34,125 bases of DNA from a virus, in IMG/VR virus record IMGVR_UViG_3300048927_000035, positions 1-34,125 of that record; one strand, 5' to 3'. The notes beneath the pieces were generated by a model. That model was given only the letters and a program-made list of their open reading frames with translations. It was not told where the DNA came from and searched no databases. The translations under genes and the position numbers were made by a program. Below, in pieces: positions 4,825-15,799 of the stretch (position 1 is the first letter of the stretch; each line of letters starts with the position of its first letter).

Positions 4825-5754
4825 TTATTCCCCCTCAAACGGCTTAACCAAGTGTTGATTAGCCTTGAATCGCTCAATGTAATCAGTTTCTCCCATGCTG
4901 TCGTAGAACTTCATGACAACCCCGAAGTTTTCCCAGGCGTACTCACGGAACCAACCGGAGGTGATCGACGTACAAACTTTACTGAGTGCCATGACAAAAC
5001 TCTGACGAGCCGGAACCTCGAAATTAAACGGAATTTGCGAACGTTCCAGTGCCAGTACGCAGCTTTCTTCGTACACACCGAGAAGACGGATATGATTCTC
5101 CTGCTCAAAGAACTTCTCTTTGGAGGTCATCACTTCACTGTCATCTTTCATGTAAGATTTGTATGCAGGTACACCCAACACCGCCACTGCTTCATGAATA
5201 GTGTCGTGGTCGTAAACATACGGCACTTCATCACCTTTGAAGAAGTCTTTGCTCTTCACATCCAGATTTGGGTGTGAGTAATCGTAAGTCTCTTTCTCAC
5301 GCAGCTTAAACACTTCTTCTAATTCCACTGGGATCTTAGCCCCAAGAGAACGCATGAAATGGATATCATTCATGGTCTTGAAGAAGTGAGGACTATTCTT
5401 CTTGTAGCGATGACTCATTTTCAGCAAATACAGAACATTCACCGGAGCTACGAAATCGCCGTTGTTCAAGAACATGCTCTGTGGGCTTGCTTTGCAGTAT
5501 TCGATCAGAATATCTGTGCTATCGCCAGGTTGAGCAATATCAAACTCGATATGTGTACCATCTGTCAGTTTGACATGACCTTTATTACCAGTACGTTCCA
5601 CAAGTTCAACCCCTTCTTCAATGGTGTAACGTAGAAATGCTACACTCCACTCCTTCTCTGTGCAAAGGAAATCAAGATCAAGGCAGGGACGATAAAACTT
5701 CTTAGCCTCCCGTTCCAATTGAATCTCTAAACCACGGCTACCAACCATAATCAT
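4825..5754 (-). CDS. Nucleotidyltransferase-fold protein
   Basis: 309 residues. The N-terminus has IMVGSRG (2-8), then CLDLDFLC with D26 and D28, and later HIEFDIA with D72. A Gly-Ser motif followed by D-x-D and a third Asp is the metal-binding layout of the polymerase-beta-like nucleotidyltransferase fold. The remaining 230 residues are mainly helical and hold no recognised domain. It could modify RNA, protein or a small molecule; the substrate cannot be inferred. It is the first gene after a promoter at 5785-5813, with SD AGGAG. Confidence 0.6.
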   Translation of the reverse strand: MIMVGSRGLEIQLEREAKKFYRPCLDLDFLCTEKEWSVAFLRYTIEEGVELVERTGNKGHVKLTDGTHIEFDIAQPGDSTDILIEYCKASPQSMFLNNGDFVAPVNVLYLLKMSHRYKKNSPHFFKTMNDIHFMRSLGAKIPVELEEVFKLREKETYDYSHPNLDVKSKDFFKGDEVPYVYDHDTIHEAVAVLGVPAYKSYMKDDSEVMTSKEKFFEQENHIRLLGVYEESCVLALERSQIPFNFEVPARQSFVMALSKVCTSITSGWFREYAWENFGVVMKFYDSMGETDYIERFKANQHLVKPFEGE

Positions 5755-5784: not shown

Positions 5785-5813
5785 AGTTTACCAGGTTTTG
5801 ATTAACGTGTCAA
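5785..5813 (-). promoter_or_regulatory. Sigma70-like promoter
   Basis: TTGACA (5813-5808), a 17-base spacer, then TAAACT (5790-5785). The -10 context TGGTAAACTCT is also found in the promoter at 7756-7784. It lies between a terminator and the gene starting at 5754. Confidence 0.8.
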
Positions 5814-5828
5814 TACTCAGGCAATAAA

Positions 5829-5846
5829 AACCCGCCGAAGCGGGTT
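5829..5846 (-). terminator. Rho-independent terminator
   Basis: On the minus strand AACCCGC-TTCG-GCGGGTT is followed by TTTATT. It ends transcription of the C-terminal-tag gene cluster, directly upstream of the next promoter. Confidence 0.9.
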
Positions 5847-5859
5847 AATCGTTACACTC

Positions 5860-6216
5860 TTAGCACATAGAGCTTGAAGAGATCCACACACCTTGAGTCA
5901 GGATACCGTTCTCATCTGCATACTCACTCGCTTCCCAACCGATGTATTCGGCATTTACATCTGTACCAACAGGGTAGTAGGTTTCACCGCTACCATATTC
6001 GCCCCAATAAGCCTGAACGCCAGCTTTATCTGCCAGTTCAGCCACTTCGTCTTTGACAGATTCCATGTAGGCTTCGGCAGCAGCGGTTTTTTCACGGATC
6101 AGATTTTCAATTTCTTTCTTGTCCACAGGTTTTCTCCTTATCTCAATACTCACGTTTTCATCAAAGGGCATAACTTCATGCCCTGCAATAAACACTTTAC
6201 ACTCAAATGGCTGCAT
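5860..6216 (-). CDS. C-terminal W-x-S-S-S-x-C tag protein 1
   Basis: 118 residues from the ATG at 6216, which overlaps the upstream stop (TAATG). The protein ends VWISSSSMC. An internal GTG at 6126 has an AAGGAG seven bases ahead and would give an 88-residue form starting at the helical part (DKKEIENLIREKTAAAEA), so two products are possible. The pre-tag region (ADKAGV...GETYYPVG) resembles the matching parts of the two tagged proteins encoded upstream. No signal peptide or known domain. It is the last gene before the 5829-5846 terminator. Function unknown. Confidence 0.8.
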   Translation of the reverse strand: MQPFECKVFIAGHEVMPFDENVSIEIRRKPVDKKEIENLIREKTAAAEAYMESVKDEVAELADKAGVQAYWGEYGSGETYYPVGTDVNAEYIGWEASEYADENGILTQGVWISSSSMC

Positions 6217-6410
6217 TAGCAACCCAATGAAGATGGGAACCAGTGATCCCCAGTGTACTCGTTTTCGTCTTCTGGATCAAAGTAACCACCCATACCATAA
6301 CACGGATGGAAACCAAAACCTTCACCTGTTTCCAGGGATAGGCGCTCTGCTTCTGCAAGAGCGGCAGTTGCCGCAGCTACAGCTTCACTTACTGTTTTAA
6401 ATTCACTCAT
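6216..6410 (-). CDS. C-terminal tag protein 2, W-F-P-S-S-x-x-C form
   Basis: 64 residues. The second of two adjacent ATGs (6413 and 6410) is chosen because AAGGAG is better spaced for it. The first half is an Ala/Glu-rich helix (SEAVAAATAALAEAE), the second a Gly/aromatic stretch (FGFHPCYGMGGYF), ending HWFPSSLGC, a variant of the tag with Pro in the first Ser position. Its stop overlaps the start of the 5860-6216 gene. Function unknown. Confidence 0.78.
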   Translation of the reverse strand: MSEFKTVSEAVAAATAALAEAERLSLETGEGFGFHPCYGMGGYFDPEDENEYTGDHWFPSSLGC

Positions 6411-6422
6411 CATTTCTCCTTA

Positions 6423-6857
6423 TTACCAGCAAATACTGCTTGAAATCCAGCCGTGTTCGTAGCCGGAATTAATGTGGGCTGAGAGAACTTGCTCTTTACC
6501 AACATAGAAATTCCCATCTTCGTACACGAAAGGTTCTTGAATACCAGATTGTTCCCAGATATTAATGAGAACTTGTTTCGTGGTATTGATGGCGTCCAGA
6601 TATTCCTTTGTGACAATCAAATTGTTGTAACAAATATCGTTCACATCATCTTCGTCTAAAGGGTGCATAGTGTCCTTATTGTATGCCACGATATCATACA
6701 TGTAATCACTATACTGACTCTGCACCTTTGTTGGGATACCTTCTACCAGGATGCGGGTGTCGTCGTCACCATCATAAATAACGGTAAAGACATACTCACC
6801 AGTATTCAGATCGTAGAAGTCTTTTCCGACTTCCAGATTATCAGTGTTATTATACAT
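6423..6857 (-). CDS. C-terminal W-x-S-S-S-x-C tag protein 3
   Basis: 144 residues, ATG with SD AAGGAG. Acidic and Tyr-rich N-terminal part, then a C-terminal module of about 50 residues: a helix with QVLINIW, a GIQ turn, EDGNFYVGKE, and the ending GWISSSICW. The same order (QV, GV, EGRVYMGSD, tag) is found in the neighbouring gene at 6867-7286, so the two C-terminal modules look homologous. Here the Cys is followed by one Trp. No known domain. Confidence 0.8.
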   Translation of the reverse strand: MYNNTDNLEVGKDFYDLNTGEYVFTVIYDGDDDTRILVEGIPTKVQSQYSDYMYDIVAYNKDTMHPLDEDDVNDICYNNLIVTKEYLDAINTTKQVLINIWEQSGIQEPFVYEDGNFYVGKEQVLSAHINSGYEHGWISSSICW

Positions 6858-6866
6858 CCACTCTCC

Positions 6867-7286
6867 TTAGCAAATCATGCTACTTGAACACCAAGCATGA
6901 CTGCCTTGAATATAGGCTTCACACTCGTCGCTCCCCATGTAAACACGACCTTCTGAAACAATCAGATCGGCGGTATCTACGCCCATTGCATTCAGGGTAT
7001 CAACAATCACTTGGCGTTCTCGATCTTTACGCTCACGCTCTGCAACGTCGATAAGGCCATGCTCACGAACAAAATCTTTGATCGCTGCCTCGCCCTCGAC
7101 AAATTCATCATGGTACATGAATTCGTACAGGATCACCTCTGGCATATCGTCCGGCATTCCGCCATACGAATCTTCAAAGGCGGCACGGTCTTCATCGTTA
7201 GACCAGATGCCGTTAGCGTATACAATACGCCCCACTTCGTCATCCCAGTTGTCTTCAAAAATTTGACCAGTTACATATTTACTCAT
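6867..7286 (-). CDS. C-terminal W-x-S-S-S-x-x-C tag protein 4
   Basis: 139 residues; ATG with GAGGAG inside the end of the upstream gene, overlapping it by 8 bases. Very acidic N-terminal domain with many Asp, Glu and Met, then a charged helix (ERERKDRERQ) and the shared module QVIVDTLNAMGV...EGRVYMGSDE ending AWCSSSMIC. Closest visible relative is the product of 6423-6857. Function unknown. Confidence 0.8.
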   Translation of the reverse strand: MSKYVTGQIFEDNWDDEVGRIVYANGIWSNDEDRAAFEDSYGGMPDDMPEVILYEFMYHDEFVEGEAAIKDFVREHGLIDVAERERKDRERQVIVDTLNAMGVDTADLIVSEGRVYMGSDECEAYIQGSHAWCSSSMIC

Positions 7287-7572
7287 CGCAAGGAATCTCC
7301 TCTTCTAATACTGCTTTAATTTTAAATGCTTTGCTTCCCAAGTAAGCATCACGAGGGTCAGAAAACGCGCTCTCACCGTAGAAGTCAAATTGCACAGTTG
7401 ACTCACTCATCAGGAAGATTGTAATAATCTCCTTGGTTCCCTCTGGCTCCATCCCTTTCAGGTCGTTCGCTAAAGTGCAACCATAGAAGCAAAGATCACC
7501 TGCACTTCCCACTTCATCCCATCCTTGCCAGGAGGCAAGGAAGGAGTGTTCTAATCCCACATTAGCAGTCAT
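7279..7572 (-). CDS. Hypothetical protein in the tag cluster
   Basis: 97 residues. The ATG at 7572 lies inside the end of the 52-codon gene and has no good SD, so translation is probably coupled. It lacks the C-terminal tag of its neighbours and ends EEIPCDE. Two cysteines near residue 30 (DLCFYGCT). Function unknown. Confidence 0.65.
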   Translation of the reverse strand: MTANVGLEHSFLASWQGWDEVGSAGDLCFYGCTLANDLKGMEPEGTKEIITIFLMSESTVQFDFYGESAFSDPRDAYLGSKAFKIKAVLEEEIPCDE

Positions 7573-7720
7573 AGGAAGAAGATCGCCATTGAACGTTCAC
7601 TTCAACATTTTCACCATCTTCGAGGGTGATGTTGAAATAGTTTTGACCTAAGCCCTCAGCGCGAGCCATCACAATAGCTTCTTCCAGTTTCTGCGCGATC
7701 AGTTGTTCTGTCGTTTTCAT
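7562..7720 (-). CDS. C-terminal tag mini-protein 5 (52 residues)
   Basis: A short open frame with ATG at 7720 and GGAGG seven bases ahead. The product starts with an amphipathic helix (TTEQLIAQKLEEAIVMA), then a strand pair (NYFNITLEDGENVEVNV), and ends QWRSSSYDC, which matches the tag on four nearby proteins. It is the first gene after the promoter at 7756-7784, so it probably leads the tag operon. Its length would let most gene finders miss it. Confidence 0.85.
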   Translation of the reverse strand: MKTTEQLIAQKLEEAIVMARAEGLGQNYFNITLEDGENVEVNVQWRSSSYDC

Positions 7721-7755: not shown

Positions 7756-7784
7756 AGTTTACCAACCACCTTGATCTATGTCAA
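7756..7784 (-). promoter_or_regulatory. Sigma70-like promoter of the tag-protein operon
   Basis: TTGACA (7784-7779), a 17-base spacer, TAAACT (7761-7756). It overlaps the last codons of the 7759-8295 gene. It shares TGGTAAACTCT with the promoter at 5785-5813. Confidence 0.8.
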
Positions 7785-8295
7785 CAGAAAAGTCATTTTT
7801 TATTTCTTCAATCAGGAAAGAAGTTTCCATTTGAAGAACACCATTAGCAATAAAACCATACAGCGGATAAGCCACAGTGTTAGCATACTCCGGTGTATCA
7901 GCGGGACAGAAATGTACGATGATTTTTCTTACACCCTCATCCAAGACACGGGTAATTGCGCGTAGGATCTCATTTACCATTAGAGTGGTGTAGGTCTGGA
8001 TGACCGTATTTTCAAATGGGACATAACCCAGGACGTGGAGGTTAATTTCCTCAATCTCTTCTTGAGTGAGAGTCTTATCCAAAGGGTAGAATGGAACATT
8101 CATTGCCGCGCCATTGTCACTAATAGCAACAATCGTCTTGTGATAACGAAACTCAATCTTATCACTCACCACCCATGTACCTTTGTCGATGGTATCCATA
8201 ACACGTTTAGTGATCATTGGTGTTAAATCGACAACCGGACTATACATCTCACTGATATTAGGGCGAGCACCGCCCCTTTGATATGCATCAAGCAT
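7759..8295 (-). CDS. Hypothetical protein
   Basis: 178 residues; ATG with SD GAAGGAG, overlapping the SLOG gene by 8 bases. The middle contains a helical segment (MVNEILRAITRVLDEGVRKIIVHFCP) that resembles a helix-strand unit of an alpha/beta fold. No motif allows a family name. The promoter of the tag operon is embedded in its 3' end. Confidence 0.7.
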   Translation of the reverse strand: MLDAYQRGGARPNISEMYSPVVDLTPMITKRVMDTIDKGTWVVSDKIEFRYHKTIVAISDNGAAMNVPFYPLDKTLTQEEIEEINLHVLGYVPFENTVIQTYTTLMVNEILRAITRVLDEGVRKIIVHFCPADTPEYANTVAYPLYGFIANGVLQMETSFLIEEIKNDFSVDIDQGGW

Positions 8296-8869: not shown

Positions 8870-9139
8870 TTAACAAGTTACTGTGAAAGGTGTTCCAAAA
8901 GGCCAATCGCCTGTTTGGTATGGCGGTTGTGGATTCTTCCAGATATCCTGTACTTGTTTTTGCCACAGATCTCGTAGGGTTGTCATACCAGGATCTATAT
9001 TCTCATTCGGAACATCAGTTTCAACTTTGATAATCTCTTCTGACACCAAAATTTCTTTGGCTAATTCAAGGTCATCTGTTTCAATAATCGTTTCTGTAAC
9101 GATATCTCCAACAGTTCGCTTGACTGTAATTTTATACAT
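8870..9139 (-). CDS. Hypothetical protein
   Basis: 89 residues from the ATG at 9139, which shares its A with the stop of the phosphatase gene (TGATG). The N-terminal half alternates Thr, Ile and Val (beta-rich), the C-terminal half is Pro/Trp-rich (NPQPPYQTGDWPFG) and ends in Cys, without the WxSSS tag. Function unknown. Confidence 0.7.
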   Translation of the reverse strand: MYKITVKRTVGDIVTETIIETDDLELAKEILVSEEIIKVETDVPNENIDPGMTTLRDLWQKQVQDIWKNPQPPYQTGDWPFGTPFTVTC

Positions 9140-9876
9140 CAATCCTCCTCAAGAGTTGAATAAAATTTAAGTTCACCATCTACATCAAAGTATGCAAAGG
9201 TGAGGTTGTTGTTGAATACACCGCCAGTATCCATATAAACACGGTTGGCGTTGATCAACGGCTCCGGTACATAAGAATGTCCATGAAAGACATAATCCAC
9301 ACCAAGAACTTTCGGGAGACTTAGACCTTCTTGAGCACAAGTTACCATATCGCGATCCCACATTAAACTTTCAGCAAAAGCCTGTAGGCGCTCACCTTCA
9401 AGATTAAGTTTTGGAATATCGGTAAGTGGTAAGTGTTCAAAAACAGAAGGATATCCACCATGAATGAAGCCGTATGTTTTCCCACGATGTGAGGCTGTCA
9501 ACACCACAGGTAGTTCTTCTACCATTGTAGCAAGAAGAGTTACACCTTCTTCACCCATTTCGTTCCAGACAGTCCAGCCACCATTCTGATACCAGCACTG
9601 GTAGTAGTCTCTGCTACCTTCCAGCATCCCACGGATCATCATATCCTCGTGATTACCACGAATAGCATAGTGGTTTTTCTTTCTGGTGAACTCCAGCACA
9701 CAACGGAAGTTCTGTTCCCCGCGATCTGTTAAATCACCAAGGGAAATCACCACATCTTCTTCACGAATACCAAGCATGTGCGCACCCTTGGTGTACAGGT
9801 CATATGAACCATGCAAATCACCAACAATGAACAACTCTTGGTCATCGCTCAGATCAATGTGTTTATATAAGATCAT
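9139..9876 (-). CDS. PP1/lambda-type serine/threonine protein phosphatase
   Basis: 245 residues with all metallophosphatase signatures: GDLHG (19-23), GDLTDRG (47-53), RGNHED (73-78), a metal-binding-type His in FIHGG (H139) and VFHGHS (197-201). Layout and length match the lambda phosphatase and PrpA/PrpB group, two-metal enzymes that remove phosphate from Ser, Thr and often His or Tyr. In infection it could reset host phosphoproteins. ATG behind GAGGAG, with ATGA overlap to the upstream gene. Confident as a phosphatase; the substrate is unknown. Confidence 0.92.
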   Translation of the reverse strand: MILYKHIDLSDDQELFIVGDLHGSYDLYTKGAHMLGIREEDVVISLGDLTDRGEQNFRCVLEFTRKKNHYAIRGNHEDMMIRGMLEGSRDYYQCWYQNGGWTVWNEMGEEGVTLLATMVEELPVVLTASHRGKTYGFIHGGYPSVFEHLPLTDIPKLNLEGERLQAFAESLMWDRDMVTCAQEGLSLPKVLGVDYVFHGHSYVPEPLINANRVYMDTGGVFNNNLTFAYFDVDGELKFYSTLEED

Positions 9877-14873: not shown

Positions 14874-15374
14874 TTAGTTATAAGCATCAAGTGTTCCAGA
14901 TGTAAGAACCTTGATAACTCGCTCTGCACGATTAGGCGTTTGTTTGTACCACTTACTTTTGCGTAAGTTGATACCAGCCTGAGTATAGTACGAATTGCTC
15001 ACTAATGTCAAGCTATTTTGGAAAGATTCTGCTCCGGCAATCCCCATTTGGAATACCATATTGACAATTGCCATTTTACGAGTAGGACTCACCTTATCGT
15101 AAATAGGAGATAGAATCTTACTCTGTTTAACCTGCTTAATAGCCTTTTCAACGTCTTTCTTGAAGATTCTACGTGCTTCGTCTTCTGTGATAACACCATT
15201 GGTCTTACGACCTACCAGCTTATCCAGTTCAGCGATAGCAACCGCTTTATCTTTGACTTTCGTTAAGAGATGACCAATACCCACTGTCCAATACCCTTCG
15301 GTATCTGTGTAGACGGTGAGCTTTAGTCCCTCGTCAAGGCGTAGCATATCAAACTCATCTACTACTTTAGCCAT
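14874..15374 (-). CDS. e: T4-type lysozyme (endolysin, glycoside hydrolase 24)
   Basis: 166 residues from the ATG at 15374 (SD AAGGAAAA); a longer upstream frame lacks an SD. It follows T4 lysozyme closely in order: MLRLDEGLKLTVYTDTEGYW with catalytic-type E15, D24 and T30, VGIGHLLT, TNGVITEDEA, INMVFQMG (here VNMVFQMG), KSKWYKQTPNRAERVI and the end GTLDAYN. It cleaves the N-acetylmuramic acid/N-acetylglucosamine bond of peptidoglycan for lysis. No signal peptide, so it would need a holin. Two extra features: a basic mini-gene just upstream, and a promoter-like sequence within codons near residue 125. Confidence 0.97.
   Translation of the reverse strand: MAKVVDEFDMLRLDEGLKLTVYTDTEGYWTVGIGHLLTKVKDKAVAIAELDKLVGRKTNGVITEDEARRIFKKDVEKAIKQVKQSKILSPIYDKVSPTRKMAIVNMVFQMGIAGAESFQNSLTLVSNSYYTQAGINLRKSKWYKQTPNRAERVIKVLTSGTLDAYN
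14982..15011 (-). promoter_or_regulatory. Candidate promoter inside the lysozyme gene
   Basis: TTGACA (15011-15006), 18-base spacer, TATACT (14987-14982) on the minus strand, about 145 bases ahead of the PhoH start. Confidence 0.5.
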
Positions 15375-15381
15375 GTTTTCC

Positions 15382-15528
15382 TTATGCGTCAACCTCGCCG
15401 TGATCCAGTTCGTCGAACATCGCGTGTTCTGGAGATGGTTCACGTTTTGGTTTCGTTTTCTTGATGTTGGACTTTAGCTCCGCTGCCAAAGCACGAGAAA
15501 AGATCTTACGTTTCTGTTTACCTTTCAT
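15382..15528 (-). CDS. 48-residue basic mini-protein
   Basis: ATG at 15528, TAA at 15382-15384. The N-terminal two-thirds is very basic (KGKQKRKIF, NIKKTKPKRE) and the end is acidic (FDELDHGEVDA). It fills the gap between glutaredoxin and lysozyme with four- to seven-base spacing. The basic part could bind nucleic acid. The ATG lies four bases after the glutaredoxin stop; SD is weak (GGAGTAACAAT). Function unknown. Confidence 0.6.
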   Translation of the reverse strand: MKGKQKRKIFSRALAAELKSNIKKTKPKREPSPEHAMFDELDHGEVDA

Positions 15529-15532
15529 ATTG

Positions 15533-15799
15533 TTACTCCGCAATCTGAGCCATGAAATCACGTAGTTCGGTGAAACCTCCTACGTGTTTGTACTCCGCAA
15601 CGTCCGACTCCTGAACCAGAATCTGGGGGAAGGTACGTGGTGGAATTCCGGTTTTCTCTACGACCACCGCTTGCATGTGATCGAGAGTGTAATCTACATC
15701 CAAGGTAAGGTAATTAAAGTCCTGACCTCGCATCTCTAAAAGCTGCTTAGCCATAGTGCAGAATTGACAGTCGGGCTTACCATAGATTACAAAATTCAT
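15533..15799 (-). CDS. Glutaredoxin
   Basis: 88 residues, single thioredoxin-fold domain. C11-Q-F-C14 is the redox pair, TFPQILV (56-62) carries the cis-proline loop, and HVGGFTEL the glutathione-contact GG. It would supply electrons to the class Ia ribonucleotide reductase encoded upstream, as T4 NrdC and bacterial glutaredoxin 1 do. It overlaps rmlD by four bases (ATGA) and is therefore the last gene of the sugar operon, although its partner NrdAB lies some 4-8 kb upstream. Confidence 0.93.
   Translation of the reverse strand: MNFVIYGKPDCQFCTMAKQLLEMRGQDFNYLTLDVDYTLDHMQAVVVEKTGIPPRTFPQILVQESDVAEYKHVGGFTELRDFMAQIAE

Follow-up and report, generated by a model that had tools for sequence, protein, structure and literature searches.

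The locus

The IMG/VR virus record IMGVR_UViG_3300048927_000035, analysed here over its whole length of 34,125 nucleotides (the window, a 34-kb virus record), has its relatives among Klebsiella phages of the subfamily Stephanstirmvirinae. On its minus strand, five small genes lie close together whose products end in the same kind of C-terminal tag, built around a Trp, Ser residues and a Cys. Directly downstream of them is a gene for a larger protein with the Pfam domains DUF7277 and DUF7275, a predicted nucleotidyltransferase (Table 1). We consider it highly probable that the tag and this enzyme are functional partners. An initial annotation of the window had described the five tags and proposed that they act at the protein level as a signal for a common partner of a modular family. 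All five open reading frames (ORFs) and their ends are as it described, and the idea of a common partner now has a candidate in the nucleotidyltransferase, which is linked to the tag in nearly all loci of one enzyme clade (clade A, see below). That gene sits just outside the stretch 5860-7720 which the annotation covered and was missed there.

Table 1. Genes and sequence features of the tagged operon and the enzyme unit
Feature	Position	Strand	Remark
Promoter-like TTGACA-N17-TAAACT, TGG before the second hexamer	7756..7784	-	Upstream of the tagged operon
Tagged small protein, 52 aa, end WRSSSYDC	7562..7720	-	88-92% identity in five Klebsiella phage records
Untagged gene, phrog_4991, 97 aa	7279..7572	-	Interspersed among the tagged genes
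Tagged protein, 139 aa, end WCSSSMIC	6867..7286	-	Pre-tag module in common with 6423-6857
Tagged protein, 144 aa, end WISSSICW	6423..6857	-	7 of 7 cluster members end WI[SQ]SSICW
Tagged protein, 64 aa, end WFPSSLGC	6216..6410	-	Match to the large family phrog_899
Tagged protein, ~88 aa, end WISSSSMC	5860..6126	-	GTG start at 6126 (probable), just after AAGGAG
Intrinsic-terminator-like stem-loop AACCCGCTTCGGCGGGTT with T-rich tail	5829..5846	-	After the tagged operon
Second copy of the promoter-like sequence	5785..5813	-	In front of the enzyme gene
Partner enzyme (putative), 309 amino acids (aa), DUF7277+DUF7275	4825..5754	-	Directly downstream of the tagged genes

Four of the tagged genes have the boundaries first given to them. 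The fifth had been drawn as 5860-6216; it probably starts at GTG 6126 instead, because AAGGAG lies a few bases upstream of that codon, and its homologues are about 90 aa long. In the relatives KP13-26, phi1_175008 and KP2025 the gene order is kept and all five proteins carry the same kind of tag; the product of 7562-7720 has retained it in all three relative loci inspected. These three relatives also have a sixth tagged gene, ending in WVTSSC, between the counterparts of the 6216 and 5860 genes, which is absent from the window. The untagged gene is interspersed as the annotation had it, with a similar-sized gene at the same position in relatives.

The tagged genes had also been thought to share one promoter and one terminator. 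Consensus matches to both are present, and the terminator-like hairpin separates the tagged operon from the enzyme unit; the promoter-like sequence, however, is not unique to the operon, since it recurs at 5813-5785. TTGACA-N14-TGGTAAACT matches without mismatch at only two places in the window. One is upstream of the tagged operon, and there the promoter-like sequence shares bases with the end of gene 7759-8295; the second lies ahead of the enzyme gene. Two relatives also have the enzyme-side copy ahead of DUF7275, with 1-2 mismatches. Promoters and terminator are consensus matches, hence putative. An Rfam search gave no match in the region.

Association of the tag with the enzyme

An alignment of ten enzyme copies, used blind to tags, retrieved 80 IMG/VR loci and one contig of a bacterial metagenome-assembled genome. 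In these 81 loci, tagged ORFs number 215 on the strand of the enzyme and 3 on the opposite strand, and a reversed control motif gives 10. Distances were counted over six-frame ORFs of at least 30 aa, by where the ORF ends relative to the enzyme. Upstream and on the same strand, 29% of the ORFs within 1 kb are tagged; the share falls to 13% between 1 and 2 kb, and beyond the 3-kb zone it is about 0.2%. The strict form of the tag ends 231 of the 1,503 ORFs that finish within 3 kb upstream of DUF7275, compared with 20 of 15,036 elsewhere. When the last 15 residues are shuffled (200 shuffles), strict tags occur on average 0.55 times and at most 3 times. Inside those same ORFs near DUF7275, away from their ends, a W..SS..C motif does not occur at all. 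The tag is clustered and about 100-fold enriched over background, well above random rates, and the position, strand and shuffle controls rule out chance or artefact. Our conclusions use these ORF-based counts; counts of the DNA pattern over whole genomes are noisy.

A tagged ORF lies within 4 kb upstream of the enzyme in 83 of 92 loci. Tags are displaced or overlapping in four loci (L029, L067, L077 and L099), L071 has a tagged ORF that runs into the called start of the enzyme, and L095 is an incomplete contig. Collapsing the enzyme at 70% identity leaves 38 clusters. A tagged-protein family is a conserved neighbour in 26 of them by BLAST alone, and no other neighbour is conserved in more than 8. 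Strictly tagged proteins mostly number from one to five per locus, with one enzyme.

How often the tag occurs without the enzyme was gauged from counts per host genus, four whole genomes and phage T4. Records with the enzyme and with the tagged family number 254 and 248 for Escherichia, 52 and 52 for Aeromonas, 36 and 34 for Enterobacter, and 35 and 34 for Klebsiella. In the four genomes scanned whole, tags are almost confined to the DUF7275 cluster; the rest are evident antisense or chance ORFs, plus two in one genome (G022). The latter, at 15323-15571 and 131625-131831, end in WNPSSKYC and WQSSSYNC and are remote from that genome's DUF7275 cluster. In T4, DUF7275 is absent from the whole genome. 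Taken together, a genetic partnership of tag and enzyme is well supported.

Two clades of the enzyme

The enzyme tree separates the clade with tagged partners, clade A, from a clade B, which groups distant DUF7275 proteins encoded by phages of Streptomyces, Gordonia and Vibrio (support 100/99). Beside the enzyme in clade-B loci (these include L101-L103 and L141-L173) we found no convincing tags. Instead, 24 of 33 such loci have proteins that are small, often present in duplicate, and marked by the motif GYYxSYxGxxWDGxxxEVxPxxKTIT (phrog_18295, 8206 and 13591), possibly a second partner family. Three labels placed on the enzyme tree need 4 changes, against 25 when they are shuffled; the partner family therefore tracks the enzyme clade. 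One more divergent DUF7275, in a Pseudoalteromonas phage, is preceded by a 57-aa acidic protein (L104:4254-4427) with the end WEDSWDDSECY, perhaps a degenerate tag.

The tag and the proteins that carry it

The pattern first proposed, W-x-[S/P]-S-S-x(1,2)-C, describes a real tag and has to be divided into two spacings. Among 114 non-redundant tagged proteins, 82 have W-x-[SAPTN]-S-S-x-x-C and 23 have W-x-x-S-x-C. All five window genes show a C-terminal W-x-x-S-S-x-x-C or W-x-x-S-x-C together with linkage to a clade-A DUF7275; the product of 6423-6857 does so as a spacing variant, with the Cys next to last and one Trp trailing. The tag is kept across highly divergent phages, as the annotation required of homologues. 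A DNA repeat as its source is excluded: no repeat runs over the tags, and the codons reported for the second Ser of the five genes (TCT, AGT, AGC, TCT, TCA) are correct and mix TCN with AGY. The same holds across loci, where TCN and AGY are mixed at both serines of W-x-x-S-S-x-x-C, the four combinations being found 81, 42, 42 and 7 times.

In an alignment of 45 tagged proteins with a mean identity of 23%, the only invariant columns are the W, S and C of the tag. The bodies in front of it fall into some 35 clusters and the proteins range from 52 to 190 aa. Many bodies have a helix and a YGxGxTYY element in common, additional N-terminal parts are found in several, and the family of 6216-6410, phrog_899, shows the layout helix, YGMGGYY, tag. 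The AlphaFold model of the 6216-6410 protein (pLDDT, the predicted local distance difference test score, 91.3) has a helix at 7-28 and strands at 32-34, 42-44 and 57-59. Trp57 of the tag opens the last strand, and the C-terminal turn SSLGC is the least certain part of the model. Compared with the PDB, this fold gave no match with an E-value below 3.7.

Such a layout, with a helix and YGxGxTYY element in many bodies and the tag Trp in a predicted strand, could mean that the tag is simply the structural end of one small fold, kept by descent, and that its linkage to DUF7275 arose through gene duplication within an operon, with no partnership with the enzyme. We regard this as very improbable. 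The bodies diverge past detection, yet three residues of the tag are fixed, and in tagged proteins of 139-172 aa the N-terminal part is a different one. Moreover, the linkage to DUF7275 holds in unrelated phages in which every other neighbour changes, and it vanishes in clade B.

Another small protein of the window, encoded at 8870-9142 on the minus strand, ends in WPFGTPFTVTC (WPFSTPFTVTC in its KP2025 homologue), a Trp...Thr...Cys C-terminus outside the tag pattern.

The probable partner enzyme

Pfam profiles match the 4825-5754 protein with 255.1 bits for DUF7275 and 34.1 bits for DUF7277 (cut-off 27). Its DUF7277 half looks like a nucleotidyltransferase: G5-S6 and D26-x-D28 are invariant in 57 sequences, and E70 is found in 54 of the 57, with D in the other 3. 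The GS, the DxD and the third acid, set on a mixed alpha/beta core in an AlphaFold model with a mean pLDDT of 91, lead us to predict a nucleotidyltransferase of the Pol-beta superfamily. The features of that superfamily are found in the enzyme, and nucleotidyltransferases head its list of PDB matches, weakly; the best is the toxin MenT1 (E 1.8e-3), and then come CCA-adding enzymes and further nucleotidyltransferases. A search by sequence for solved homologues gave none that was credible. Some Acinetobacter phage records annotate the enzyme as a putative nucleotidyltransferase.

The DUF7275 half, for which we found no clear relative in the PDB, contains a second strictly conserved set, H183-D184-x-x-H187, E229-E230 and E237-R238, largely kept in clade B too. 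This set could be another metal or nucleotide site, and it may even be a second active site, for example for removal of a modification.

Since MenT1 modifies tRNA, and CCA-adding enzymes come next among the matches, the enzyme might act on RNA such as tRNA ends, the tagged proteins being inhibitors or regulators that place their C-terminal tail in its active site. MenA antitoxins offer a parallel, as they too are small and diverse, and act by inducing auto-phosphorylation of MenT (PMC11375011); some T4-like loci also lie near phage tRNA genes. We still find a MenAT-like role improbable. The fold match concerns mainly the nucleotidyltransferase core and leaves the DUF7275 half without a clear counterpart, there are several partners per enzyme, and tRNA genes are not constant neighbours.

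What might the system do?

Nucleotidyltransferases of this superfamily use hydroxyl acceptors, and the tag offers two adjacent serines as candidates. There is also a precedent for transfer to a protein encoded next door: MntA adenylylates Tyr104, part of a conserved motif in its gene neighbour HepT (PMC7641770). On these grounds we suggest that the enzyme may nucleotidylate a serine of the tag. By analogy this is quite possible and is the reading that we favour, although we would stop just short of calling it probable.

The resulting picture would be a two-part phage system, made of an array of small tagged proteins and a single DUF7277-DUF7275 nucleotidyltransferase. The tag would be the handle by which the enzyme recognizes the small proteins through direct contact, and the enzyme would transfer a nucleotide to the tag serine much as MntA does to the tyrosine of HepT. 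Modified and unmodified forms would presumably differ in activity or binding, and because of this one enzyme could switch a whole set of small proteins for host takeover or anti-defence. The selection would differ between phages, with enzyme and tag as the fixed parts. In its fullest form, the suggestion is that a dedicated nucleotidyltransferase reads an eight-residue C-terminal tag and nucleotidylates, or thereby cyclises, serines on swappable takeover or anti-defence proteins, and that the clade-B sister enzymes of actinophages and Vibrio phages act on a second family with its own C-terminal motif. We offer this wider version tentatively and with more doubt than serine transfer taken by itself.

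Several observations speak against the reading by serine nucleotidylation. The clade-A loci L079, L086 and L092 have no clear tag near the enzyme, and in L086 a homologue of the bodies ends in DSYDSSYDEDE rather than in a tag. The PDB matches of the enzyme are weak (for the best, E 1.8e-3 and template modelling scores of 0.36/0.54). Part of the tag may be structural, as judged from the model in which its Trp sits in a predicted strand of a small fold. Finally, Cys and Trp of the tag are as invariant as Ser, which a model with Ser purely as acceptor leaves unexplained; given these equally fixed residues, the serine may be no more important than binding or Cys chemistry.

Invariant Trp and Cys would suit a binding peptide better than an acceptor site. 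The main rival to serine nucleotidylation is docking without modification: the tag, as a short linear motif, would recruit the enzyme, and the variable bodies would serve as adaptors, each for a different host or phage target to be nucleotidylated by the enzyme. One enzyme with mostly one to five tagged proteins per locus, diverse bodies and an invariant C-terminal end is what a recruiter-plus-adaptor design would look like, and the absence of this accessory region as a unit from T4 fits as well. What makes us think docking unlikely, if still well worth considering, is that several tagged proteins are just 52-65 aa long and consist mostly of a helix, short strands and the tag, with little room for a body that binds a target.

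The C-terminal Cys, invariant and placed 2 or 4 residues after the invariant Ser, brings to mind yet another potential role, as a redox, metal or cyclisation site (a Ser-Cys thioether, for instance), with the enzyme activating the serine or merely being co-inherited. Each tag has one Cys, though, and the only enzyme family constantly present next to the array is DUF7275; of all the explanations considered, we give this one the least credence.

The regions that large phages devote to host takeover are full of small hypothetical proteins, most of which have no assigned function. The tag links some 35 clusters of bodies to one enzyme, and so provides a handle on many such proteins at once; the prediction is that tagged small proteins act through the same enzyme or get switched by it. 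If serine nucleotidylation of the tag were proved, it would be a portable C-terminal modification tag, a kind of protein modification undescribed for phages in the literature that we searched.

Comparison with known systems

Among the closest known systems is HEPN/MNT (HepT/MntA, type VII), where a small nucleotidyltransferase with GS...DxD is likewise encoded beside its protein partner. The differences are that here one enzyme has several diverse partners, that a Ser-Ser/Cys tag stands at their extreme C-terminus, and that the enzyme has the extra DUF7275 domain and no match to Pfam NTP_transf_2. Neither a HEPN domain nor RX4HXY was found in the tagged proteins with Pfam, PHROGs and PADLOC. 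With serine nucleotidylation proved, it would be fair to call the system a distant functional cousin of HEPN/MNT.

MenT/AbiEii with MenA/AbiEi resembles it in the fold of MenT1 and in having small, variable partners. Here, by contrast, Pfam gives DUF7277 and DUF7275 only, and the arrays are phage-borne. Membership of MenAT/AbiE was rejected: Pfam, NCBIfam and PADLOC gave no match to AbiEii/MenT (DUF1814) or AbiEi/MenA, so that the similarity is one of fold only.

RlaP, the RNA-ligase-associated Pol-beta nucleotidyltransferase common in T4-like and jumbo phages (PMC7824862), shares the active-site motif of the superfamily with our enzyme. The two are nevertheless distinct: many genomes with DUF7275 have another gene that the RlaP profile PF10127 matches, and so does T4, a phage without DUF7275. 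Profile comparison with hhalign aligns only about 20 columns of the two, with a probability of 0.3%.

In the GlnD/PII pair a nucleotidyltransferase reversibly nucleotidylates small signalling proteins. By analogy, the second conserved His/Asp/Glu site of DUF7275 could be a removal site; unlike in PII, a tag takes the place of the T-loop Tyr and the partners are many. No PII or HD domain was matched by Pfam in the enzyme or the tagged proteins.

Against the anti-phage defence models of PADLOC 2.0, neither the enzyme nor any of four tagged proteins had a match at E<=1, and with NCBIfam and PADLOC together no membership of a defence or toxin-antitoxin family emerged. The parts themselves are catalogued, as DUF7277 and DUF7275 in Pfam and as PHROG 899, 4882 and 23943 (tagged) and 2141 (enzyme), all with 'unknown function'. 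Our literature search, which left subscription papers and preprints outside, found no paper naming DUF7275 or DUF7277 or linking tag and enzyme, nor any on a system of tagged phage proteins. Because no membership that we tried was found beyond the nucleotidyltransferase superfamily and the DUFs themselves, we rate the tag-and-enzyme system as categorically new.

Distribution among phages

A tblastn search with the C-terminal 103 aa of the 5860 protein matched 453 phage records, of which many belong to T4-like phages. Clusters of two to five tagged genes include the match in Dhakavirus C6, Kosakonia phage 305, Klebsiella phage MM4 and others, and the same clustering is seen in Serratia phage 4S and Aeromonas phage avDM4. 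A conserved gene found nearby downstream in these loci encodes a protein of 300-320 aa, that of 4825-5754 in the window. Overall, loci with tags occur in many unrelated tailed phages and range over T4-like phages, Stephanstirmvirinae and jumbo phages of up to 450 kb.

RB69 has both tagged genes, ORF136c among them, and the enzyme, ORF134c, between e.2 and e.3, a place where T4 has neither. As RB69 possesses the system and its relative T4 does not, it can be tested directly in E. coli. In RB69 (L105:3087-3393), an apparent frameshift divides the gene of the 5860 family into two pieces, ORF139c and ORF138c, the second of which still ends in WVSSPALC; a sequencing error, a pseudogene or a programmed frameshift are all possible.

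The 447-kb phage of locus L086 (8901-10059) has its tagless body homologue at 8901-9305, followed by a 220-aa ORF directly before DUF7275. This ORF has the look of a C-x-C/HNH-like endonuclease, and the tag gene there may have been changed by an insertion of the homing type. DUF7275 also occurs in giant viruses (BFVD).

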